Assembly: GCF_900100765.1 (NCBI RefSeq)
Contig: NZ_FNFO01000009.1
Location: forward strand, 186,001-250,000
Direction of reading: 5' to 3'
Length of the DNA stretch: 64,000 nucleotides
Origin: Catalinimonas alkaloidigena
Lineage (GTDB): Bacteria > Bacteroidota > Bacteroidia > Cytophagales > Flexibacteraceae
The position numbers and the translations under genes were made by a program. Below, in pieces: positions 14,206-24,363 of this stretch (positions are counted from its first letter, which is position 1; the number at the start of each line of letters is the position of its first letter). The notes beneath the pieces were generated by a model. It was not told the DNA's origin. It ran no database searches and worked only from the letters and a program-made list of their open reading frames with translations.

Positions 14206-14670
14206 CTAGTGGCTGGGCTGTTTGGGTACTTTGACGCCTTTGTTGTTCCATTTCCACACGACGAACGTCAGCGGCGTGGTGCCGGTGTTGGTGATGCCGT
14301 GCTCGTCCCAGGGCGCGGCGTACTGCATATCGCCCGCTTGGGCCGGAAACGTTTTGCCGTTCATCGACCAGGTGCCTTCCCCTTCGGTCACCATCAGAAA
14401 CTCTTCCTCGGCGTGCAGGTGGGGCGGGTGAATTTCCATACCGGGTTTGATCACCGCCACGGCCGCCAGTAGGTCTTTCGTGCCGTAGGTCTCGTCGGTG
14501 TAGTAGGTGTAGAGCGATCCCCACTCAAAATCTTCTCTCGATGCTTTTTGCTGCGAAATCACGGCCGAAGGATTTGGTTTGGCCAGACGGCGGGCATACG
14601 AAAAGCCGGCGGTGAAGCTCAGGCCGAGCAAGAAAACGGCAACCAGCGCGAGGGTAATTTTTGTCTTCAT
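14206..14670 (-). CDS. Membrane-anchored or exported cupin-domain protein
   Basis: A 154-residue protein with an N-terminal hydrophobic helix (residues 5-24), either a signal anchor or an uncleaved signal. The cupin motif 1 is HPPHLHAEEEF (H81, H84, H86, E90) and motif 2 contains WDEHGITNTG (H124), so the metal-binding set looks intact. Single-domain cupins of this type often bind a divalent metal, but the ligand or reaction is unknown. It converges with the DUF1080 gene, with 11 bp between stop codons. A role in sugar or redox chemistry in the periplasm is conceivable but unsupported. Confidence 0.82.
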   Translation of the reverse strand: MKTKITLALVAVFLLGLSFTAGFSYARRLAKPNPSAVISQQKASREDFEWGSLYTYYTDETYGTKDLLAAVAVIKPGMEIHPPHLHAEEEFLMVTEGEGTWSMNGKTFPAQAGDMQYAAPWDEHGITNTGTTPLTFVVWKWNNKGVKVPKQPSH

Positions 14671-14999
14671 AGCGTGTAGTCAGGGTATAGGAATGGGATT
14701 AGAGAAGCCAAATTATGCAAAAGTGGGCGATTGGTATACAGGCCGTGGAGTGTGCGAAAGGTGCGGTTGTAAAATACGAGGGTGAAGTTTCATTTAAGAA
14801 TGGATCTGCACCGAGATTGTATTATTGGTAGACGTGGGGGAACTCTTGCGAAGCGGAAACGGCTTATGGGCGTATCTGTTCTCAACCTATTGAATGACTA
14901 TGAATTGTTAAGGTAGCGGCTTTCTGCAAAGACAATATCCGTAAGTTTTGTACAGTTATAGAAAAGCAGAGGAGCCTAATCCTGAGCAATTTAGTGCCT
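14671..14999. other. Intergenic region, 329 bp, no gene seen
   Basis: This divergent gap between the cupin gene (minus) and the small membrane protein gene (plus) must hold both promoters. TAAGTTTTG at about 14943-14951 is near the -7 consensus of Bacteroidota but is not an exact match. Short open frames here have no family-like features. Confidence 0.4.
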
Positions 15000-15317
15000 A
15001 TGAGTAACTACATAGAAATCGCCGACGACACCGTCGTTTCTTCTCTTTATGTAAGCGCCATCGCCCTGGCTTACGAAATGATCAACTGGTGGGCTGCCCA
15101 TCAGGCCCGGGGGCAGAAATTGAAACTTATGTGGATTGGCCACCTGGGTTGTGTGGCGTATCTGTTGGGTGCTCTGCTGACGCTGGTTTTCCCTTTTCCG
15201 TCCGATACGGTTTCTACGCTGGCGGTCGTCACCTCGGGTGTCATGCGCATGAGCGGCATCGGCCTGATCATCGTTGGGTACATCCGCTTGTTACAGATGG
15301 TCCGCACGCTGGGCTAA
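15000..15317 (+). CDS. Small three-helix membrane protein of unknown function
   Basis: A 105-residue protein with three hydrophobic segments (about residues 11-32, 45-63 and 72-95) and the ending GLIIVGYIRLLQMVRTLG. I do not recognise a family. The ATG at 15000 is preferred over an in-frame GTG at 14994. It is monocistronic and ends before a bidirectional hairpin terminator at 15357. It does not appear linked in function to the minus-strand cassette that follows. Confidence 0.6.
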   Translation: MSNYIEIADDTVVSSLYVSAIALAYEMINWWAAHQARGQKLKLMWIGHLGCVAYLLGALLTLVFPFPSDTVSTLAVVTSGVMRMSGIGLIIVGYIRLLQMVRTLG

Positions 15318-15356
15318 GCCGACGCCGCTTGTTCTCTAAAAAAGTAGAATCTCTGC

Positions 15357-15378
15357 AAAAACCTTATGTAAGGTTTTT
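15357..15378. terminator. Bidirectional hairpin terminator
   Basis: AAAAACCTTA and TAAGGTTTTT form a perfect 10-bp stem around two bases, with A-rich and T-rich flanks, so it can work in both directions. It separates the plus-strand small membrane protein from the end of the minus-strand HAD/kinase/ligase cassette. Confidence 0.75.
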
Positions 15379-15450
15379 GAGGCTCTTTGCAGAAAAATCC
15401 GGTAGCAATTCGACTCTATCGTTCTGTCTGTCAGGATGCTACACGCCCGG

Positions 15451-16302
15451 TTACTCCGTGATGGCGGCTGACTCGCAGATATACGTAGGGGTAATTCCCG
15501 TCGCCTGAATGTACTGCTTGGCCAGATGAGCGGGCGTGTTGCCCGACAGGACCATGACCGTATCCAGCCCAAACTTGTTGCCCCCCAGAATGTCGGTGCC
15601 CAGCGTATCGCCGACCATCAGAATGTCGTTCTTGTCGACCGGGTGCATCGGCTGCACGTGCTCGTAGGCGTAGATGAACATTTGTGCGTCGGGCTTCCCG
15701 AAGCGAATGATGCGTTTGCCGGTCACGTCCTCCACCATGTTGGCAATGGCCCCGATGGCGGCCGCCACTTCATTTTTCGAAACCGGATACGCTTTGTCGG
15801 AGTTGGCTACGATGGCCGGAATGTTCCGGTGGCGCAACAGGTTGATCACTTTGTTGATGTCGCGGTTCCAGTCGAACCCTTCGTCGTCCAGAAACACCAC
15901 CACTTCCACGTCCTCTGCAGTTGCAGGGTCCAGTTCGCCTATCGGAATGGCCGTCAGCGAAAGGGTTTCGATGTAGTGGGCCGAATTGGGCGTGCCCAAA
16001 TACGCCACCTTCCCCTTTTTGACTTTGTAGCGCAGGTACTCGCTGGCCAGCATGCCCGACGAGATGATTTTGTCGGGGGTGATGTCGTGCAGCCCCACGC
16101 GGTGGTACGAGTCGGCGAGCAGCTCCGGACTGCGCGAGGCATCGTTGGTCAATACATAATAGCCGATCCCCTGCGCGTTGAGGTAGTCGATGGTACGGTC
16201 CACACCGTCGATGCGTCCGTGTGCGTTTTTGAGCACGCCGAAGGCATCGAAAAAAACTACTTTATACTTCGAGACAATCGATTTGAAATTTCGGATTTTC
16301 AT
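15451..16302 (-). CDS. HAD superfamily class IIA (NagD-like) protein with altered motif I
   Basis: A 283-residue HAD protein, last gene of a three-gene minus-strand cassette. Motif I reads VVFFDAFGVLKNAHG: the nucleophile D19 is present but the usual second Asp of DxD is F21. Motif II is YYVLTND, motif III includes RFGKPDAQMF, and motif IV is MVGDTLGTDILGGNKFGLDT. The class IIA cap lies between motifs II and III. A few IIA subfamilies (TIGR01459 type) also lack the second Asp, so activity is possible but unusual. It starts 42 bp after the kinase gene. Role unknown; a phosphatase or lyase acting on the kinase product is an inference from context. Confidence 0.82.
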   Translation of the reverse strand: MKIRNFKSIVSKYKVVFFDAFGVLKNAHGRIDGVDRTIDYLNAQGIGYYVLTNDASRSPELLADSYHRVGLHDITPDKIISSGMLASEYLRYKVKKGKVAYLGTPNSAHYIETLSLTAIPIGELDPATAEDVEVVVFLDDEGFDWNRDINKVINLLRHRNIPAIVANSDKAYPVSKNEVAAAIGAIANMVEDVTGKRIIRFGKPDAQMFIYAYEHVQPMHPVDKNDILMVGDTLGTDILGGNKFGLDTVMVLSGNTPAHLAKQYIQATGITPTYICESAAITE

Positions 16303-16344
16303 AAAAAGGGTTACTACGCTTACACAAACTCCTGTTACAGAGCA

Positions 16345-17388
16345 CTAAAGTTGAAGGGTCGAAAGAATTTTATCGGGGTTGAACCGTAGGTCGATCAGCG
16401 GGAAGTAGGTGTTGAACGCCTCGAGCTGCAGCTTGGAGGCGTAGATTTCGTGGAAGAAATAGCGCCCGTCTTTGATGACGTAGTTGAGGATGAAGAATCG
16501 GTAGGCCTCCTTCATAAACAGCACTTCGGGGCGCGTCAGCGGATAAATCTGGTGGTATTCTTCCAGAAACCACATGAACCGGTCTTCCATCAGCGGGTCG
16601 ATCAGGTAGCTGAACACCGTCCGGTCGCCGATGGTGGAACACACGCGGCTGAAGAAGTAAAAATCCAGGATGCGCGAACTCATCCGGAACCAGTCGTAGT
16701 CCCAGCGCGAATAAAAATGCAGGTTTTCGTCGACCGAAAAGTTGCCGATGTTCCAGTCCACAAACACTGGAATGGCCGGAAACGAATCGGCCTTGAGGCG
16801 GTCCATGTTTTCCAGCAGCAGCACGCACTGGTGCTTGATGTCGTCGAGGTGGAGACGGTACTCAAAACGGCCCAGGTCGGTCTTGATGATTTCCATCAGG
16901 TGGTAGATGTCGTACTTGATGGTTTTAGACCAGCCGGGCAGCACGTTGCGGATCTTGAAGCAGGCTTTGTGGAACTTGGCCAGCTCGCGCCCCATGGCCC
17001 GGATGTTTTCTTCGGGCTGGATGCGGGGCAGGCGCTCCTTGACGCTGATGGGGTTGTAAAACACCACCCACGCGTCGATAAACTGGTCTTTGTGGCGGTA
17101 GGTGTACAGCTGGTTGTGTTTGGTGAGCGACCGCGCCAGAAAGTTGCTGTAAGGTTCGGGCAGGTTGGTAGACAGGGCGTTGATCAGCGAATGGTCTTCC
17201 AAAAAATGCTCAAACCGCCCGAAGTACGAGAGTTTGGCGATGACCATGTCGTCGTTTTCCAGTTTGACGCGGAACACGTGGTTGGTGGAAACTTTGGCGC
17301 TGATGTCGGTGATGGAGAGCACCCGCCGGGAAGAGTCGTACTCGCGCCAGGCCCGTCGGATGATGGGGTCGTAATTGATGATCCGCAT
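16345..17388 (-). CDS. APH-fold small-molecule kinase-like protein with atypical catalytic loop
   Basis: A 347-residue protein kinase-like (aminoglycoside/choline kinase) fold. The N-lobe has TNHVFRVKLENDDMVIAKLS with likely ATP lysine K52. The catalytic loop is FVDWNIGNF (D211, N216), in which the usual His of HxDxxxxN is Phe. The metal-binding segment is RWDYDWF (D230, D232). No transmembrane helix or signal is seen, so it is cytoplasmic. It sits between the glutamine-synthetase-like ligase (4-bp gap upstream) and the HAD protein, so all three are probably cotranslated. The phosphoacceptor is unknown. Loss of the His alone does not abolish activity in related kinases. Confidence 0.72.
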   Translation of the reverse strand: MRIINYDPIIRRAWREYDSSRRVLSITDISAKVSTNHVFRVKLENDDMVIAKLSYFGRFEHFLEDHSLINALSTNLPEPYSNFLARSLTKHNQLYTYRHKDQFIDAWVVFYNPISVKERLPRIQPEENIRAMGRELAKFHKACFKIRNVLPGWSKTIKYDIYHLMEIIKTDLGRFEYRLHLDDIKHQCVLLLENMDRLKADSFPAIPVFVDWNIGNFSVDENLHFYSRWDYDWFRMSSRILDFYFFSRVCSTIGDRTVFSYLIDPLMEDRFMWFLEEYHQIYPLTRPEVLFMKEAYRFFILNYVIKDGRYFFHEIYASKLQLEAFNTYFPLIDLRFNPDKILSTLQL

Positions 17389-17392
17389 AACG

Positions 17393-18730
17393 TCAGATAA
17401 GTTCGAAGTATCGTTTCAGTTCCCAGTCGGTAACCTCGCGCTGAAACTGCTGCCATTCCCACGCGCGGGTGGTGGCGTAGTGATCGACAAAAGCGTCGCC
17501 CAGGAGCGTCCGCGCCAACTCCGACTGTTTCATACGTTGGGTGGCTTCCCACAGGTTAGGCGCCAGCGTGCCGTGCGCCTTGTTCTGGTAGCCGTTGCCC
17601 TGCGTCGGCGGCACGGTGAGCGGCAGTTCCTGTTCGATCCCGTACAGACCCGAGGCCAGGCAGGCCGCCATGGCCAGGTAGGCGTTGGTATCCGAGCCGG
17701 ACACGCGGTGCTCGATGCGCATGTGCTGCGGCGTGTCGTTGATGACGCGCAGTGCGTTGGTGCGGTTTTCGACGCCCCAGGTAACGGTGGTAGGCGCCCA
17801 GGCGCCTTCGACCAGCCGCTTGAAACTGTTGATGGTGGGCGCAAACAGCGGAAGCAGGTCGGGCAGGCAGTGCAACTGCCCGGCTAGGTAGTGCGCCGCC
17901 AGTTTGCTCAGCTTGTGGGGTTGTTCCGCTGCGTAAAACAGGTTTTCGTCGTTGTGCCACAAGCTCTGGTGGATGTGGCCGCTGCAGCCGGGCAGGTCTT
18001 TGTTCCACTTGGCCATGAAGCTGGCCAGCAGCCCGTGGCGAAACGCAATTTCCTTGACGCTGTTCTTCAGCAAAACCGCACGGTCGGCCGCTTCCAGTGC
18101 TTCGGTGTGTCGGATGGCGGCTTCCACCACGCCCGGCCCCGTTTCGCAGTGCAGCCCTTCCAGCGGCACGCCGAACCGATCGAGCAGTTCGAACAGGTTT
18201 TTGAAGAAGGCGCTGTTTTGCGAGAGGCGCAACACCGAATAGCCGAACATGCCCGTGGTGGCGGGTTGTGGTGCATGGTAGCCGCGCGCTTCGAGCGACT
18301 GCGACGTCTCCCGGAAATTAAACCACTCGAATTCCTGCGCGAACTGAGGCTGGTAGCCCATCGACTCCGCCTTGTGCACCATCCGCTTCAGCAGCGACCG
18401 GGGGCAGGCCGGCGTATCCTGTCCGTCGAAATCGGCCAGAAAAAAGGGCAGGTCGTCTTCCCACGGAATCTGCCGGAACGTCGACAGGTCGATCCGCGCA
18501 AACCGGTCGGGATAACCCGTATGCCAGCCGGTCAGGTCCACGTGGTCGTACACTTCGTCCTGTACGTCCCACCCGAAAATAACGTCGCAGAACCCCAGTC
18601 CATGCGCCAGCCCGTTGAGAAATTTGTCGCGGTGGATGTACTTGCCGCGCAACACGCCGTCGATGTCGGCCACGGCATATTTGACGCGCGAAAAGCCCTG
18701 CAGGCGTTGTTGGAGTTCGTCTTGTGTCAT
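17393..18730 (-). CDS. Glutamine synthetase-like ligase (gamma-glutamylpolyamine synthetase type)
   Basis: A 445-residue glutamine synthetase superfamily ligase. The beta-grasp N-domain runs to about 110; the catalytic barrel has QEFEWFNF (metal Glu), GPGVVEAAIRHTEALEAAD, GCSGHIHQSLW, the ATP/glutamate region ENRTNALRV and the C-terminal VSGSDTNAYLAMAACLASGL. The tyrosine adenylylation loop of classical GlnA is not seen, and the overall form resembles PuuA/GlnT ligases that condense glutamate with amines. It is the first gene of a ligase-kinase-HAD cassette; 369 bp separate it from the divergent lacI-type gene. The amine partner is unknown, and it is unlikely to be the main ammonia-assimilating enzyme. 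Confidence 0.88.
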   Translation of the reverse strand: MTQDELQQRLQGFSRVKYAVADIDGVLRGKYIHRDKFLNGLAHGLGFCDVIFGWDVQDEVYDHVDLTGWHTGYPDRFARIDLSTFRQIPWEDDLPFFLADFDGQDTPACPRSLLKRMVHKAESMGYQPQFAQEFEWFNFRETSQSLEARGYHAPQPATTGMFGYSVLRLSQNSAFFKNLFELLDRFGVPLEGLHCETGPGVVEAAIRHTEALEAADRAVLLKNSVKEIAFRHGLLASFMAKWNKDLPGCSGHIHQSLWHNDENLFYAAEQPHKLSKLAAHYLAGQLHCLPDLLPLFAPTINSFKRLVEGAWAPTTVTWGVENRTNALRVINDTPQHMRIEHRVSGSDTNAYLAMAACLASGLYGIEQELPLTVPPTQGNGYQNKAHGTLAPNLWEATQRMKQSELARTLLGDAFVDHYATTRAWEWQQFQREVTDWELKRYFELI

Positions 18731-19099
18731 AGAAGCGTGCTAGCCATAAACGCAGCGGCTGAAACAAAACGCGGGGGAGAGGGGCCCGCCGGTCAGCCAC
18801 ATGGCAAAGCTAATAAACCTGAAGGAGCCGGAGCGACGCTGACGGAAACTCGGCCGGAAAATGCTCCTTTTCTGCCGTTGAAGTAGTCCGGTTGCCATGA
18901 ATATGAAGGCAGAAACCGGGTAGATGGGCGACCAGCCAATGAGTCAACGCCGTTACTGCGCGAAATCCCAACCGTGTGTTCTGTTCCGGTTTTTTGTTAT
19001 TTTCCTGTGGGCAGCGTAACCCCTCGGGTGTGGCCGCAGGTATAAGACCTGTGGAGGGAGTGCGCTGTGCTCTCTGATGCACCACCTCTCGCAATTCCC
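18731..19099. other. Divergent intergenic region, 369 bp
   Basis: This gap lies between the ligase cassette (minus) and the LacI-type regulator gene (plus). It contains a partial inverted repeat CAGGT-N5-ACCTG at about 19035-19050, just upstream of the regulator start, and a T-rich stretch (GGTTTTTTGTTATTTTCC) near 18980-19000 that could be part of a promoter. No coding frame with family features was seen. Confidence 0.35.
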
Positions 19100-20134
19100 A
19101 TGAGTAAGTTTCTGAGTACCGTCGACCTGGCCAAAGCCCTCAATCTTTCCCCTTCTACCGTTTCGCGTGCCCTGAACGATCATTATTCGATCAGCGAGAA
19201 AACCAAAAAACGAGTACTGGAGTACGCCCGTGAAGTCGGCTTCCAGAAAAACCTGAATGCGTCGCGACTGTTGCGCGAGCAGACGTTTACCATCGGGATT
19301 GTGATGCCCGAAATTTCCAGTTACTTCTTTTCGACGGTGGTGCAGGGCCTGAAGCAAGTGCTGGAGCCAGCCGGCTACGACATGCTCATCATGCAGACGG
19401 GCGAACAGCTCGACAACGAAGTCCGGGCAGTGCGGTTTCTGACCTCCCTGCGCGTCGATGGGCTGATCTACTCCCCATCCATCGAAACAAAATCGTACGA
19501 ACACCTGGAGGTCGTGATGAAAAACCAGATCCCTTTCGTGAACCTGGATCGTGGCCTGCCCGGCGTGCATTGCTATCAGGTTTTAGTCAACGACGAGCTG
19601 GGCGCGTTTCAGGCGGTGCAACACCTGATTCAGAGCGGTTGCCGGCGCATTGCGCACGTAGCCGGACCGCAGAATACCTTCAACGCCCGCAATCGATTCA
19701 AGGGCTACCAGCGCGCGCTGGAGGCGAATGGCCTGCCTTACGACGATGCGCTCGTGGTCTATACCGATTACCGCATGAGCCACAGCATGGAAACGGTACA
19801 TCAGCTTTTTAAGCGCAAGGTGCTGCCGGATGGCATTTTCGCGATCAACGACGAAATGGCGGTCGGGTGTATTTCGGCGGCCCGCAAGCGCGGCCTGCGC
19901 ATTCCGCAGGACTTGGCAGTGGTAGGCTTCGACGACGAAATGTACGCTTCCTATTTCTATCCGGCCCTTTCGACCGTTAAGAACCCGATGGCCGACATGG
20001 GCGAACTGGCCGCAAAGCTGTGTCTGGAGCAAATCCACGAGTACGACCCCGAGCGGTTCGAGGTGAAGTTGCTGCAGCCGGAAGTGATCATCCGCGACTC
20101 GTCGCGGCGGTCCAGCACCAAGTTTTTTGCCTGA
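19100..20134 (+). CDS. LacI family transcriptional regulator
   Basis: A 344-residue LacI/GalR regulator. The DNA-binding headpiece is residues 1-55 (TVDLAKALNLSPSTVSRALN, hinge helix near 50-60), followed by a periplasmic-binding-protein-like effector domain (TIGIVMPEISSYFFSTVVQG, VDGLIYSP, GFDDEMYASYFYPALSTV). The ATG at 19100 gives the standard headpiece; the upstream in-frame start at 19067 would add residues not found in the family. A perfect palindrome that matches LacI-type operators in form lies just downstream, in front of the inositol oxygenase gene, so that gene is its most likely target (inference). The effector is probably a sugar or cyclitol. Confidence 0.92.
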   Translation: MSKFLSTVDLAKALNLSPSTVSRALNDHYSISEKTKKRVLEYAREVGFQKNLNASRLLREQTFTIGIVMPEISSYFFSTVVQGLKQVLEPAGYDMLIMQTGEQLDNEVRAVRFLTSLRVDGLIYSPSIETKSYEHLEVVMKNQIPFVNLDRGLPGVHCYQVLVNDELGAFQAVQHLIQSGCRRIAHVAGPQNTFNARNRFKGYQRALEANGLPYDDALVVYTDYRMSHSMETVHQLFKRKVLPDGIFAINDEMAVGCISAARKRGLRIPQDLAVVGFDDEMYASYFYPALSTVKNPMADMGELAAKLCLEQIHEYDPERFEVKLLQPEVIIRDSSRRSSTKFFA

Positions 20135-20309: not shown

Positions 20310-21164
20310 ATGATTGAAAAACCCAAGCCCCTGGACATTGAAGACCTCTGGGAAGAGGATCTGCTGACCCGTTATCCTGAACCGGATCAAAAAGCCAAAG
20401 AAGAGTTTCGGAATTATGACAGTCCGGGTCGCGACACGGTGCGCGAGTTCTACCGCATTAACCACAGGTACCAGACGCACGATTTCGTACAAAAGAAGCG
20501 CACGGAGTTTCTGGGGTTGAATCGCCGGAAAATGACCTTGTGGGAAGCGGTGGAGTTTCTGAATACCCTGGTGGACGATTCGGACCCGGATACGGACCTG
20601 GATCAAACACAGCATTTGTTGCAGACTTCGGAGGCGATCCGTGCCGACGGGCATCCCGACTGGTTCGTGCTGACGGGTTTTTTACACGATCTGGGCAAGG
20701 TGCTTTGCCTGTTTGGCGAAGAACAGTGGGCTGTGGTTGGCGATACCTTTCCGGTGGGTTGCCGGTTTTCCGACAAAGTGGTCTATCCCGAGTTTTTCGA
20801 GCAGAATCCGGATCATCACGACGAGCGCTACAACACAAAATATGGCATCTACGAGCCCAATTGTGGGTTGCGTAATGTGTACATGTCGTGGGGCCACGAC
20901 GAGTACCTCTACCATGTGATGAAGGATTATTTGCCGGAAGAAGGCCTTTACATGCTTCGGTATCACTCGTTCTACGCGCAACACCGCGAGGAAGCCTACA
21001 CGCACCTGATGGACGAGCACGACCATGCCTACTTCAAATGGGTGAGGGCCTTCAACCCGTACGATTTGTACTCGAAAGCAGCTACCCCGCCCGATGTGGC
21101 AAAATTGCGGCCGTATTATGAAGACCTGGCTGCGAAATACTTACCCGATACCTTGAGATTTTAG
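20310..21164 (+). CDS. myo-Inositol oxygenase (MIOX)
   Basis: A 284-residue non-haem di-iron oxygenase that converts myo-inositol and O2 to D-glucuronate. All six iron ligands of the animal enzyme can be placed: H102 (LDQTQHLLQT), H126 and D127 (GFLHDLGK), H196 (SWGHDEYLYHVM), H219 (RYHSFYAQH) and D252 (FNPYDLYSK). The substrate-binding region DSPGRDTVREFYRINHRYQT near residue 37 is also conserved, as is the end LRPYYEDLAAKYLPD. The length equals that of eukaryotic MIOX. Glucuronate would enter the same catabolism as pectin-derived uronates. It stands alone behind the palindrome at 20161 and is followed by a terminator. Soluble, cytoplasmic. Confidence 0.95.
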   Translation: MIEKPKPLDIEDLWEEDLLTRYPEPDQKAKEEFRNYDSPGRDTVREFYRINHRYQTHDFVQKKRTEFLGLNRRKMTLWEAVEFLNTLVDDSDPDTDLDQTQHLLQTSEAIRADGHPDWFVLTGFLHDLGKVLCLFGEEQWAVVGDTFPVGCRFSDKVVYPEFFEQNPDHHDERYNTKYGIYEPNCGLRNVYMSWGHDEYLYHVMKDYLPEEGLYMLRYHSFYAQHREEAYTHLMDEHDHAYFKWVRAFNPYDLYSKAATPPDVAKLRPYYEDLAAKYLPDTLRF

Positions 21165-22836: not shown

Positions 22837-24363
22837 TTAGTCCGTACCGTAACGTCGTTTGAACTGACGTACCCAGTAGCGCCGTATGCCGATCAGAAAG
22901 CCGGTGCCCAGGAGAATCCCGAGTCCCCAGGCAATCCACTGACGTGGTTGTAGACCCGAATGCAAGGCAAGGCGCGGGTCGCCTACTAGCATCCAGCCGC
23001 TCCACTGGCGTGGTGACGCCAGCGTGGGGTCGGCCAAGGCGGCGAGCTGGGCCTGATGCAACGCTTCGAGCATGGGTCTGTCTTCTTGCAGACCTGCCAG
23101 AAAGATACGCAGGAAGGCGCCGTCGGCCGCTGGCGCAGCCGGCCCCCGGTAGACCAGCAGGTTTTTCCCGCCGTGGTAGAGCAACGCCTGCGTGAGTTGC
23201 GGCCAGACGGACGCTACCGCCTGTTCCAGCACGAGCAGACGAGGCTGCAACGGATGTACAAACCACTGTGCCAGCGTCGTAGTATCTATCAACGGTGCGT
23301 AGTAAATGACTTGTGCGCTATCGGCCTCGCGCCAAAAAGCCGATTCCGTAGCGTCATGGCCTGTCAGGATCTGCCCTTCCAGTGCCTGTTGCGCCATCTG
23401 TACACGGTCCGTAGCGCCGGGTTGTGCGGTTGGCGGTGCAAAGCTGAGCAGTGGTACCCCACCCTCCAACGGTGCATTGCGGAGGGTTTCAATGTAGGAC
23501 GTACCGCTCCAGTGGTAGCTTACAGCTTGGTTACGGACCAGATAGGGTAGGGATGCAAACCCAGGCGCAGTGGCGGGGGACGAAGGCAAAAGCGCTTCGA
23601 AAGGTAAAGTTTGCAGGGGACCATCCGGAAACACCAGGAGGTGCTCGTGAAGCGTAATGTCGAACTGCCCGATCAGGGTCTGGTAAAGTTGAGCGGCAGC
23701 AGCGACGTACGCAGTGACATCGTCAGTCTGTAACGCCCGCTGAAATGCGGCAACCAGGCGGGCCACTGCAGTAGCATCGGCCAAAGCATACGCCTGAGCT
23801 GACGTCTTATCGATCCGCACGAGGTAACCGTTTCCCTCTATAAACAGGTAAGAAAGCGCCGTGGCGCCAAACGGAATCCGTTGCTGAACGTCGGAAAGGC
23901 CGCTGACTTCCGGGCGGTACTTCAGGTCGTAGTAGCGTGGATAGCGTCGGCGGAGCGCCGTCAGGAATGGGTCGTCGGATGCAGCTTCGGCCCTAGTAGT
24001 GCTTTGCCACCACCGCTGTTCTGCCCGTTGCAACGAGTCTGGTAACACTTCAAATTCCGGTAGCATCTGGCGTAACCGCGCGCGCCGCAGTCGCTCGCCA
24101 ATACGGAACAATGAATCCAGATTTGAATGGGAAAAGTCCAACTGGTAGTTCTCCCACGCCGCTTGCCACGCTGCTACGTCAGGAGCATCCACAGAGGGGG
24201 TGCTGTCAATAGCGACCTGCGAAACAAGGCTGTCGGATGCAGAAAGAGGCGCAGCATGGGCCTTTCCGGCCAGAAAACAGGCTCCAACTACCCATATCAA
24301 CGCAAGAGAGAGCCAGCGAAGCGAAACGAAATTACCAAAGAAAGGAGAAGTGCCTGCGTCCAT
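22837..24363 (-). CDS. Membrane-anchored CHAT-domain protein lacking catalytic residues
   Basis: A 508-residue protein: N-terminal signal or anchor helix (about 14-37), a helical region (about 60-140), a CHAT caspase-like domain (about 160-450) and a C-terminal transmembrane helix (about 473-492) with a basic tail. The CHAT fold is supported by LHEHLLVFPDGPLQTLPFEALL, LVRNQAVSYHWSGT and WSGWMLVGDPRL. The catalytic positions are lost: the His-Gly box reads AQVIYYAPLID and the Cys box reads RLLVLEQAVASVW, so it is probably a dead protease. The TPR array usual before Bacteroidota CHAT domains is largely missing. It may act as a scaffold. No partner gene is adjacent. Confidence 0.72.
   Translation of the reverse strand: MDAGTSPFFGNFVSLRWLSLALIWVVGACFLAGKAHAAPLSASDSLVSQVAIDSTPSVDAPDVAAWQAAWENYQLDFSHSNLDSLFRIGERLRRARLRQMLPEFEVLPDSLQRAEQRWWQSTTRAEAASDDPFLTALRRRYPRYYDLKYRPEVSGLSDVQQRIPFGATALSYLFIEGNGYLVRIDKTSAQAYALADATAVARLVAAFQRALQTDDVTAYVAAAAQLYQTLIGQFDITLHEHLLVFPDGPLQTLPFEALLPSSPATAPGFASLPYLVRNQAVSYHWSGTSYIETLRNAPLEGGVPLLSFAPPTAQPGATDRVQMAQQALEGQILTGHDATESAFWREADSAQVIYYAPLIDTTTLAQWFVHPLQPRLLVLEQAVASVWPQLTQALLYHGGKNLLVYRGPAAPAADGAFLRIFLAGLQEDRPMLEALHQAQLAALADPTLASPRQWSGWMLVGDPRLALHSGLQPRQWIAWGLGILLGTGFLIGIRRYWVRQFKRRYGTD

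Follow-up and report, generated by a model that had tools for sequence, protein, structure and literature searches.

A glutamine-synthetase-fold ligase, an APH-fold kinase and a class IIA HAD protein form a recurrent operon of Bacteroidota, tentatively assigned to amino-alcohol metabolism

Three genes packed on one strand of the Catalinimonas alkaloidigena genome (7.1 Mb) raise the question of what a ligase of the glutamine synthetase fold, a kinase and a class IIA HAD protein could be doing together. The genes lie on the minus strand of a 64,000-nucleotide stretch of contig NZ_FNFO01000009.1 (the window), run from position 18730 to 15451 in the order ligase, kinase, HAD, and are separated by gaps of 4 bp (ligase/kinase, 17389-17392) and 42 bp (kinase/HAD, 16303-16344). 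The original prediction described them as a three-gene cassette with two altered active sites, FVDWNIGN in the kinase and DAFG in the HAD protein; these motifs, the coordinates and the gaps are all exactly as first noted. It also knew of no described pathway made of a ligase, a kinase and a HAD protein, and we likewise found none in the open-licence literature. We ask here whether the three genes (the trio) belong together, to which families their products belong, and what chemistry they might carry out.

We first consider how the genes are distributed across genomes. We use three samples: 291 genomes of the order (Cytophagales), a 316-genome draw of the phylum, and the best 80 of 357 public loci. 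Matches are counted at E ≤ 0.001 for the kinase, E ≤ 1e-60 (order) or 1e-40 (phylum) for the HAD protein, 1e-80 for the ligase and 1e-20 for the GATase discussed below, where all limits but that for the kinase were set by us. The genomes are related by descent, and Fisher p-values therefore overstate their independence. In the order, 48 of 291 genomes have the kinase (weakest match 2e-119), and exactly these 48 have the HAD protein. Kinase and HAD genes are less than 300 bp apart in 38 of the 48; in the other ten they are not adjacent, with eight pairs on the same strand at 2.0-6.1 kb, one pair at 439 kb and one on different contigs. The draw of the phylum gives the same picture: 37 of the 316 genomes have the kinase, and all 34 of those that are new also have the HAD gene adjacent downstream (weakest match 8.5e-78), compared with 0 of the 46 kinase-negative genomes tested. 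Among the best 80 of the 357 public loci, the HAD gene starts within 300 bp downstream of the kinase in 75, lies within 1.2 kb with one gene between in four, and is not found in one (L093). Kinase and HAD protein are thus an inseparable core, and this pair is spread over at least Bacteroidota and Balneolota; some loci carry odd labels of metagenome-assembled genomes (Rickettsiales, Gemmatimonadetes, Latescibacterota) that are possibly mis-binned. Within the family of C. alkaloidigena, kinase, HAD protein and ligase are found in the window's genome only (1 of 11, at the limits used), which suggests loss elsewhere or transfer in. A reading of the trio as plasmid cargo was rejected: a search of 72,556 plasmid records for the kinase gave nothing at E ≤ 1e-5.

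No fourth operon member common to the lineages was found, and the genes that separate kinase and HAD differ by lineage. In one genus, five of eight loci with intervening genes (L144, L145, L147, L148, L151) repeat a YHYH-type protein and two others on the same strand, and four of those five also have, judged by eye, an ECF-type sigma factor between kinase and HAD. A further locus of the same genus (L149) has a fucosidase in this position, a metagenome-assembled genome of Cyclobacteriaceae (L034) an FkbM methyltransferase, and Siphonobacter has different genes again.

The ligase behaves as a frequent third member. In the order it occurs in 54 of 291 genomes, 29 of them kinase-positive; 25 of the 48 kinase-positive genomes (the trio genomes) have it directly upstream of the kinase. 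Among the new genomes of the phylum, 29 of 34 kinase-positive but only 1 of 46 kinase-negative genomes have the ligase, and in 27 of the 34 it is directly upstream of the kinase. In the 80 public loci the ligase is upstream in 23, while 25 are Dyadobacter loci that lack it; outside Dyadobacter, 30 of 50 public genomes have a ligase somewhere and 20 have no match. The trio is therefore a real, recurrent and widely inherited operon, and adjacency of the three genes is not the rarity on which the original prediction would have fallen. The cassette of that prediction holds up as an operon but not as an indivisible set of three: kinase and HAD protein are the core, and the ligase is optional. Strict coupling together with an optional ligase is also what would be seen if the HAD protein were a damage-control phosphatase for a side product of the kinase, with the kinase working in general salvage and the ligase merely a frequent neighbour. 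We consider this quite unlikely, because a gene found in 29 of 34 kinase-positive but 1 of 46 kinase-negative genomes, and immediately upstream in 27, is too close for a chance neighbour. That all three proteins serve one pathway is, in our judgement, fairly likely.

What does the ligase make? The protein matches Pfam Gln-synt_C (323 bits), and among solved structures it matches 11zs and 5dm3 best. It scores well below the cut-offs of the named families with which it was compared: 208.7 bits against 429 for type I GlnA (TIGR00653), 218.9 against 470 for GlnT/type III (TIGR03105) and 205.5 against 650 for PuuA, the γ-glutamylputrescine synthetase (NF045547). In a tree of 80 rows, GlnA and GlnT lie across a starred fork (97/85) from the trio ligase and PuuA is nearer. 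The likeness to γ-glutamylamine synthetases put forward in the original prediction is upheld by this fork, with the reservation that several long reference branches meet in the tree and may be joined falsely, as the program itself warns. Outside the main ligase group, the nearest sequence is that of a Photobacterium protein, which joins a long branch of Sagittula; these joins are unsure.

The active site is considered next. In 67 of 67 aligned ligases the equivalents of E129, E131, E212, E220, G265, H269, H271, R321, R339, R344, E357 and R359, which handle metal, glutamate and ATP, are identical and agree with GlnA; the exception among residues of this kind is N264, which is Pro in 66 of the 67. 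In all 67 the ammonium-site Y179 is replaced by Phe and the flap residue E327 by Trp. The column of D50, also of the ammonium site, still has Asp in 57 of the 67, made up of 38 of the 40 kinase-linked rows and 19 of the 27 others. According to the Streptomyces GlnA4 paper (PMC6529630), an aromatic replacement of E327 (F331 in GlnA4, W296 in PauA7) belongs to the case for a larger amine in GlnA4, and use of ethanolamine by GlnA4 was shown in vitro. Could the trio ligase nevertheless be an ordinary, ammonia-using glutamine synthetase, and the operon one of plain nitrogen assimilation? It shares the fold and the catalytic residues of such an enzyme and keeps Asp in the D50 column, but the family scores, the replaced flap and ammonium-site residues and the position in the tree all disfavour this assignment, and the window's genome already has genes of the glutamine synthetase II (GSII) and III (GSIII) types. 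We regard it as highly improbable. Judged by homology, the trio ligase is very probably a γ-glutamyl-amine ligase. It would share this activity, along with the glutamine synthetase fold, with PuuA of the E. coli Puu putrescine pathway; it differs from PuuA in an identity of about 32%, a score far below the PuuA cut-off and its surroundings, where tblastn (E ≤ 1e-5) finds no gene of the puuB, puuC, puuD or puuE type in the 64 kb window.

More specific information comes from the company that the ligase keeps when the kinase is absent. In 24 of the 25 ligase-only genomes of the order, an iron-containing type of alcohol dehydrogenase (Fe-alcohol dehydrogenase, Fe-ADH) is encoded on the same strand within 4.5 kb, usually accompanied by a GATase and an aldehyde dehydrogenase; an amino-acid permease is frequent there too. 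GATase is found in 21 of 25 ligase-only genomes; among kinase-positive genomes it is in 6 of 48, and among trio genomes in 1 of 25. Conversely, Fe-ADH is found beside 0 of 40 kinase-linked ligases of the tree within the stretches covered, where some flanks reach only about 1.3 kb, and neither the window nor the surroundings of the other kinase-linked tree rows show alcohol or aldehyde dehydrogenases or a γ-glutamyl hydrolase beside the ligase. The ligase thus swaps partners between two operon types. This home of the orthologs in Fe-ADH/GATase/aldehyde dehydrogenase operons of a known type lay beyond the view of the original prediction. The same components occur, in the order aldehyde dehydrogenase, Fe-ADH, GATase, in the operon of the Photobacterium relative (48% identity), and a similar layout is that of the ethanolamine γ-glutamylation pathway reported for Streptomyces (PMC6529630) and for a Phaeobacter operon (PMC10132767).

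The swap extends to genomes that have both the kinase and, away from it, a ligase. There the ligase often sits in a catabolic operon (L160, L212, L215, L219, L220 and, lacking a visible aldehyde dehydrogenase, L214); the exceptions have no such partner (L159, L213), end at a contig end (L221) or show a permease only (L156, L158). Three ligase loci of Emticicia (L216, L217, L218) are a third context, in L217 between an ATP-grasp-like protein and a GntP-type permease. The ligase sequences themselves follow this division loosely: ligases split by partner in the tree, but only 18% of bootstrap trees set the kinase-linked ones together on one side of a branch, and the side of catabolic and other ligases has 85/93, below the starred level; no column of the 67-row alignment separates kinase-linked from other ligases at limits of 85% and 80%.

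Set beside the ethanolamine γ-glutamylation pathway (S. coelicolor GlnA4; ETAGA, GETADH, GAADDH and GGAH of Phaeobacter; Chromohalobacter salexigens), the trio shares a ligase of the glutamine synthetase fold with its catalytic residues kept and an aromatic flap at E327, and trio-ligase orthologs of the same order sit in the Fe-ADH/GATase/aldehyde dehydrogenase operons. It differs in having kinase and HAD protein in the place of the dehydrogenases and the hydrolase, and the ligases of the Streptomyces and Phaeobacter papers lie outside our alignment. By this analogy the substrate of the trio ligase would be an amino alcohol such as ethanolamine, an assignment towards which we lean without great confidence. 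Within the order, 21 of the 25 trio genomes have EutB, as does 1 of the 23 other kinase-positive genomes; it is absent from all 25 ligase-only genomes (counted by genus, 6/8 against 22/107; Fisher p 0.0026). At two eut loci of the order a permease is 43-45% identical to that of the catabolic operon, and EutC beside one of them is confirmed. An ethanolamine substrate is accordingly supported within part of Cytophagales and unproved elsewhere.

The window's genome has its own eut locus outside the window (G000:C2:424619-426004; L205 7620-9005), with eutB beside eutC and gltB, both named by eye. An ethanolamine ammonia-lyase next to glutamate synthase genes joins ammonia release to assimilation.

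We turn to the kinase, which belongs to a separate and very conserved family. It has no Pfam family at E ≤ 1; its single NCBIfam hit is weak (infA, E 0.05, far under that family's cut-off), and its best match to the sequences of solved structures, at E 0.66, is noise. Its AlphaFold model (mean predicted local distance difference test score 90.4) has the APH/choline-kinase fold, with AmiN as best match (Z 20.1, root-mean-square deviation 3.8 over 306 residues), followed by N-acetylhexosamine kinase (NahK, Z 19.9), homoserine kinase (19.2) and aminopropanol kinase (18.8); choline kinases stand at about 17-18, APH(2'') within about 17-20, and a P. vivax ethanolamine kinase appears in the Foldseek list. 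The trio kinase shares with the APH, choline and homoserine kinases the fold over about 300 residues and the catalytic Asp, Asn, metal Asp and Lys. It differs from them, apart from the missing Pfam hit, in the His of HxD, which is Phe in 46 of 46 aligned sequences: the catalytic loop reads F[VIM]DWNIGN in every one, that is, FxDxxxxN in place of HxDxxxxN, and K52 and DYD230-232 are invariant. Amino-alcohol kinases (homoserine, ethanolamine, choline, aminopropanol) among its neighbours favour the amino-alcohol assignment, though the substrates of these neighbours are so diverse that the fold alone cannot name that of the trio kinase. That it acts on a small molecule of some kind is probable.

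The same list of neighbours contains E. coli YihE (1zyl, Z 18.6). YihE is a protein kinase, and the strict pairing of kinase and HAD protein fits a writer and an eraser; the two could then be a reversible protein-modification pair that switches enzymes of the glutamine synthetase type by phosphorylation. A GSII-type gene indeed lies within 7.5 kb of the pair in seven of the best 80 public loci, in Chitinophagaceae and Balneolaceae (L100, L104, L106, L109, L110, L111, L113). L113 has it upstream of the kinase at a distance of about 150 bp, and a GSIII-type gene accompanies it near the pair in L100 and L106; Pfam confirmed the GSII of L106 and the GSIII of L100. Such neighbours may keep a regulatory reading alive, but the adjacency is limited to two lineages and the ligase of 25 ligase-only genomes works without the pair, and we find protein modification very doubtful. 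A 720-residue neighbour in Segetibacter was rejected as a GSIII candidate: it is a SLOG/TRPM-like protein with a SLATT domain (Pfam, L111), encoded about 3.8 kb upstream of the kinase in the two Segetibacter loci (L104 and L111).

We now come to the HAD protein. It matches the HAD-IIA family TIGR01460 (132.1 bits against a cut-off of 100), as class IIA HADs do (2HX1 and the kin of NagD and chronophin), and falls just short of TIGR01459, a hypothetical family of the same class (98.7 bits against 103.75). Its nearest solved relative is 2hx1 (E 7e-108), which is identical over 283 residues to the HAD protein of another trio (genome G081); 2hx1 is listed only as a predicted sugar phosphatase, and we found no functional or biochemical account of it in the open-licence literature. 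What sets the trio family apart from its class is motif I, D[AS][FY]GV in 30 of 30 aligned sequences, where the second Asp, the acid/base, is replaced by Phe or Tyr; T52, K203, D232 and D237 are invariant in the same 30. Other residues at this position are familiar among HAD proteins: Tyr in haloacid dehalogenases, Ala in phosphonatase and Ser in LHPP. Since HAD proteins vary here, an unusual substrate or leaving group is a likelier explanation of the change than loss of activity. The two active sites that the original prediction called altered do differ as it stated, and they turn out to be fixed features of their families with the core catalytic residues kept. We rejected dead or decaying enzymes on the grounds that neither odd motif varies and that both active sites are otherwise conserved (nucleophile, catalytic Asp, metal ligands, Lys).

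How might the three activities be joined? Our favoured, though still tentative, reading is that the trio is the operon of an amino-alcohol pathway in which kinase and HAD protein take the place of oxidation. The ligase would couple a small amino alcohol, most probably ethanolamine, through its amine to the γ-carboxyl of glutamate at the expense of ATP; the product would be a γ-glutamyl-amino alcohol. Relatives would oxidise that compound with Fe-ADH and aldehyde dehydrogenase, after which a GATase-type hydrolase would cleave it. In the trio the kinase would instead phosphorylate a hydroxyl of the γ-glutamyl product, or of the amino alcohol itself, and the HAD-IIA protein would remove, transfer or otherwise handle that phosphate. 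The first step is well supported by homology and the second is plausible from the modelled fold; the HAD step is the weakest of the scheme, because the acid/base Asp is missing. The sequence of glutamylation, phosphorylation and dephosphorylation that the original prediction thought conceivable fits these data, by analogy, as one possible order of events.

Several observations weigh against this amino-alcohol pathway. The Asp kept at D50 leaves ammonia a formal possibility as substrate of the ligase. The absence of the usual acid/base Asp from the HAD protein makes plain alkyl-phosphate hydrolysis doubtful, and the fold neighbours of the kinase also include sugar and antibiotic kinases. GATase hits ran down to 5e-21 at the limit of 1e-20, and diverged copies may be missed. 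EutB also occurs in 45 of 218 genomes of the order with neither gene, and in the public genomes (a set that overlaps the order sample) in 8 of 20 with the trio and 1 of 30 others, with none in the members of Marinoscillum and Balneolaceae tested; given the gap between these 8 of 20 and the 21 of 25 of the order sample, we rejected EutB as a general trio partner and keep it only as a lead. Finally, no ligase is found (E ≤ 1e-80) in 19 of the 48 kinase-positive genomes of the order and in 5 of the 34 of the phylum, all of which have the pair. The substrate of the pair could therefore have another source than the ligase, and the pair may act on, or make, a free amino alcohol.

This last point leads to a different arrangement, in which the pair supplies the amine: the kinase would phosphorylate a precursor, an unlinked enzyme would convert it, and the HAD protein would free the amine or amino alcohol, which the ligase, where present, would cap with glutamate for storage, detoxification or export; where there is no ligase, the pair would act alone. 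Three observations speak for it: the ligase-less genomes of the order, the lack of a ligase match in 20 of 50 public kinase-positive genomes, and the near absence of GATase from the trio genomes, by which the capped product seems not to be recycled by the known route. Against it, no converting enzyme recurs beside the pair (ten neighbours from nine ligase-less kinase–HAD loci are unrelated, with no recurrent partner), and a simple alkyl phosphatase would not be expected to lack the acid/base Asp. We judge this arrangement unlikely.

Returning to the amino-alcohol pathway, its most specific form would be a new branch of amine metabolism, in which ethanolamine is glutamylated and then phosphorylated to a metabolite of the γ-glutamyl-phosphoethanolamine type, and a HAD protein that lacks the standard acid/base Asp handles the phosphate, with kinase and HAD protein acting as one unit. 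We hold this exact form to be somewhat unlikely; we found no account of phosphorylated γ-glutamyl amides in the open-licence literature. We would place the trio within the known γ-glutamylation kind of amine metabolism; the trio itself is apparently undescribed. It ties a kinase with no Pfam family and a HAD protein with a solved structure (2HX1) but no assigned function into an inseparable pair, often inherited with a ligase of guessable chemistry, and this gives a short and concrete list of substrates for two orphan enzyme families. If the amino-alcohol pathway is true, one ligase would have two fates for its product, oxidation for food or phosphorylation, set by its operon partners.

The features of the locus are collected in Table 1.

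Table 1. Coordinates of the trio and its flanking elements in the window.
Feature	Position	Strand	Basis
Glutamine-synthetase-fold ligase, very probably a γ-glutamyl-amine ligase; 445 aa; heads the operon	17393..18730	-	Pfam Gln-synt_C; tree and active-site columns
Predicted APH/choline-kinase-fold kinase, 347 aa	16345..17388	-	AlphaFold model, Foldseek, VIA-align; invariant K52, D211, N216, D230
Kinase catalytic loop FVDWNIGN codons, residues 209-216	16741..16764	-	sequence reading
HAD class IIA protein, 283 aa	15451..16302	-	TIGR01460; nearest solved relative 2hx1; alignment
HAD motif I DAFG codons, residues 19-22	16237..16248	-	sequence reading
Hairpin, possible two-way terminator (by eye) between convergent genes ending at 15317 (+) and 15451 (-)	15350..15400	.	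sequence
Spacer separating the operon from a LacI-type regulator gene (by eye) that diverges from it; operon promoter expected here	18731..19066	.	open reading frames

The hairpin at 15350-15400 is not among the consensus hits of the scan, the promoter scan gave nothing in 18731-19066, and Rfam has no match at gathering score in 14500-19200, which includes the region upstream of the trio. Beyond the ligase gene and divergent from it lies a LacI-type regulator (by eye, 19067-20134, plus strand), for which no repeated association with the trio was seen. It is followed by a myo-inositol-oxygenase-like protein (by eye, 20310-21164, plus strand), and further along the window, at 22837-24363 on the minus strand, a gene encodes what by eye looks like a CHAT-type protease.

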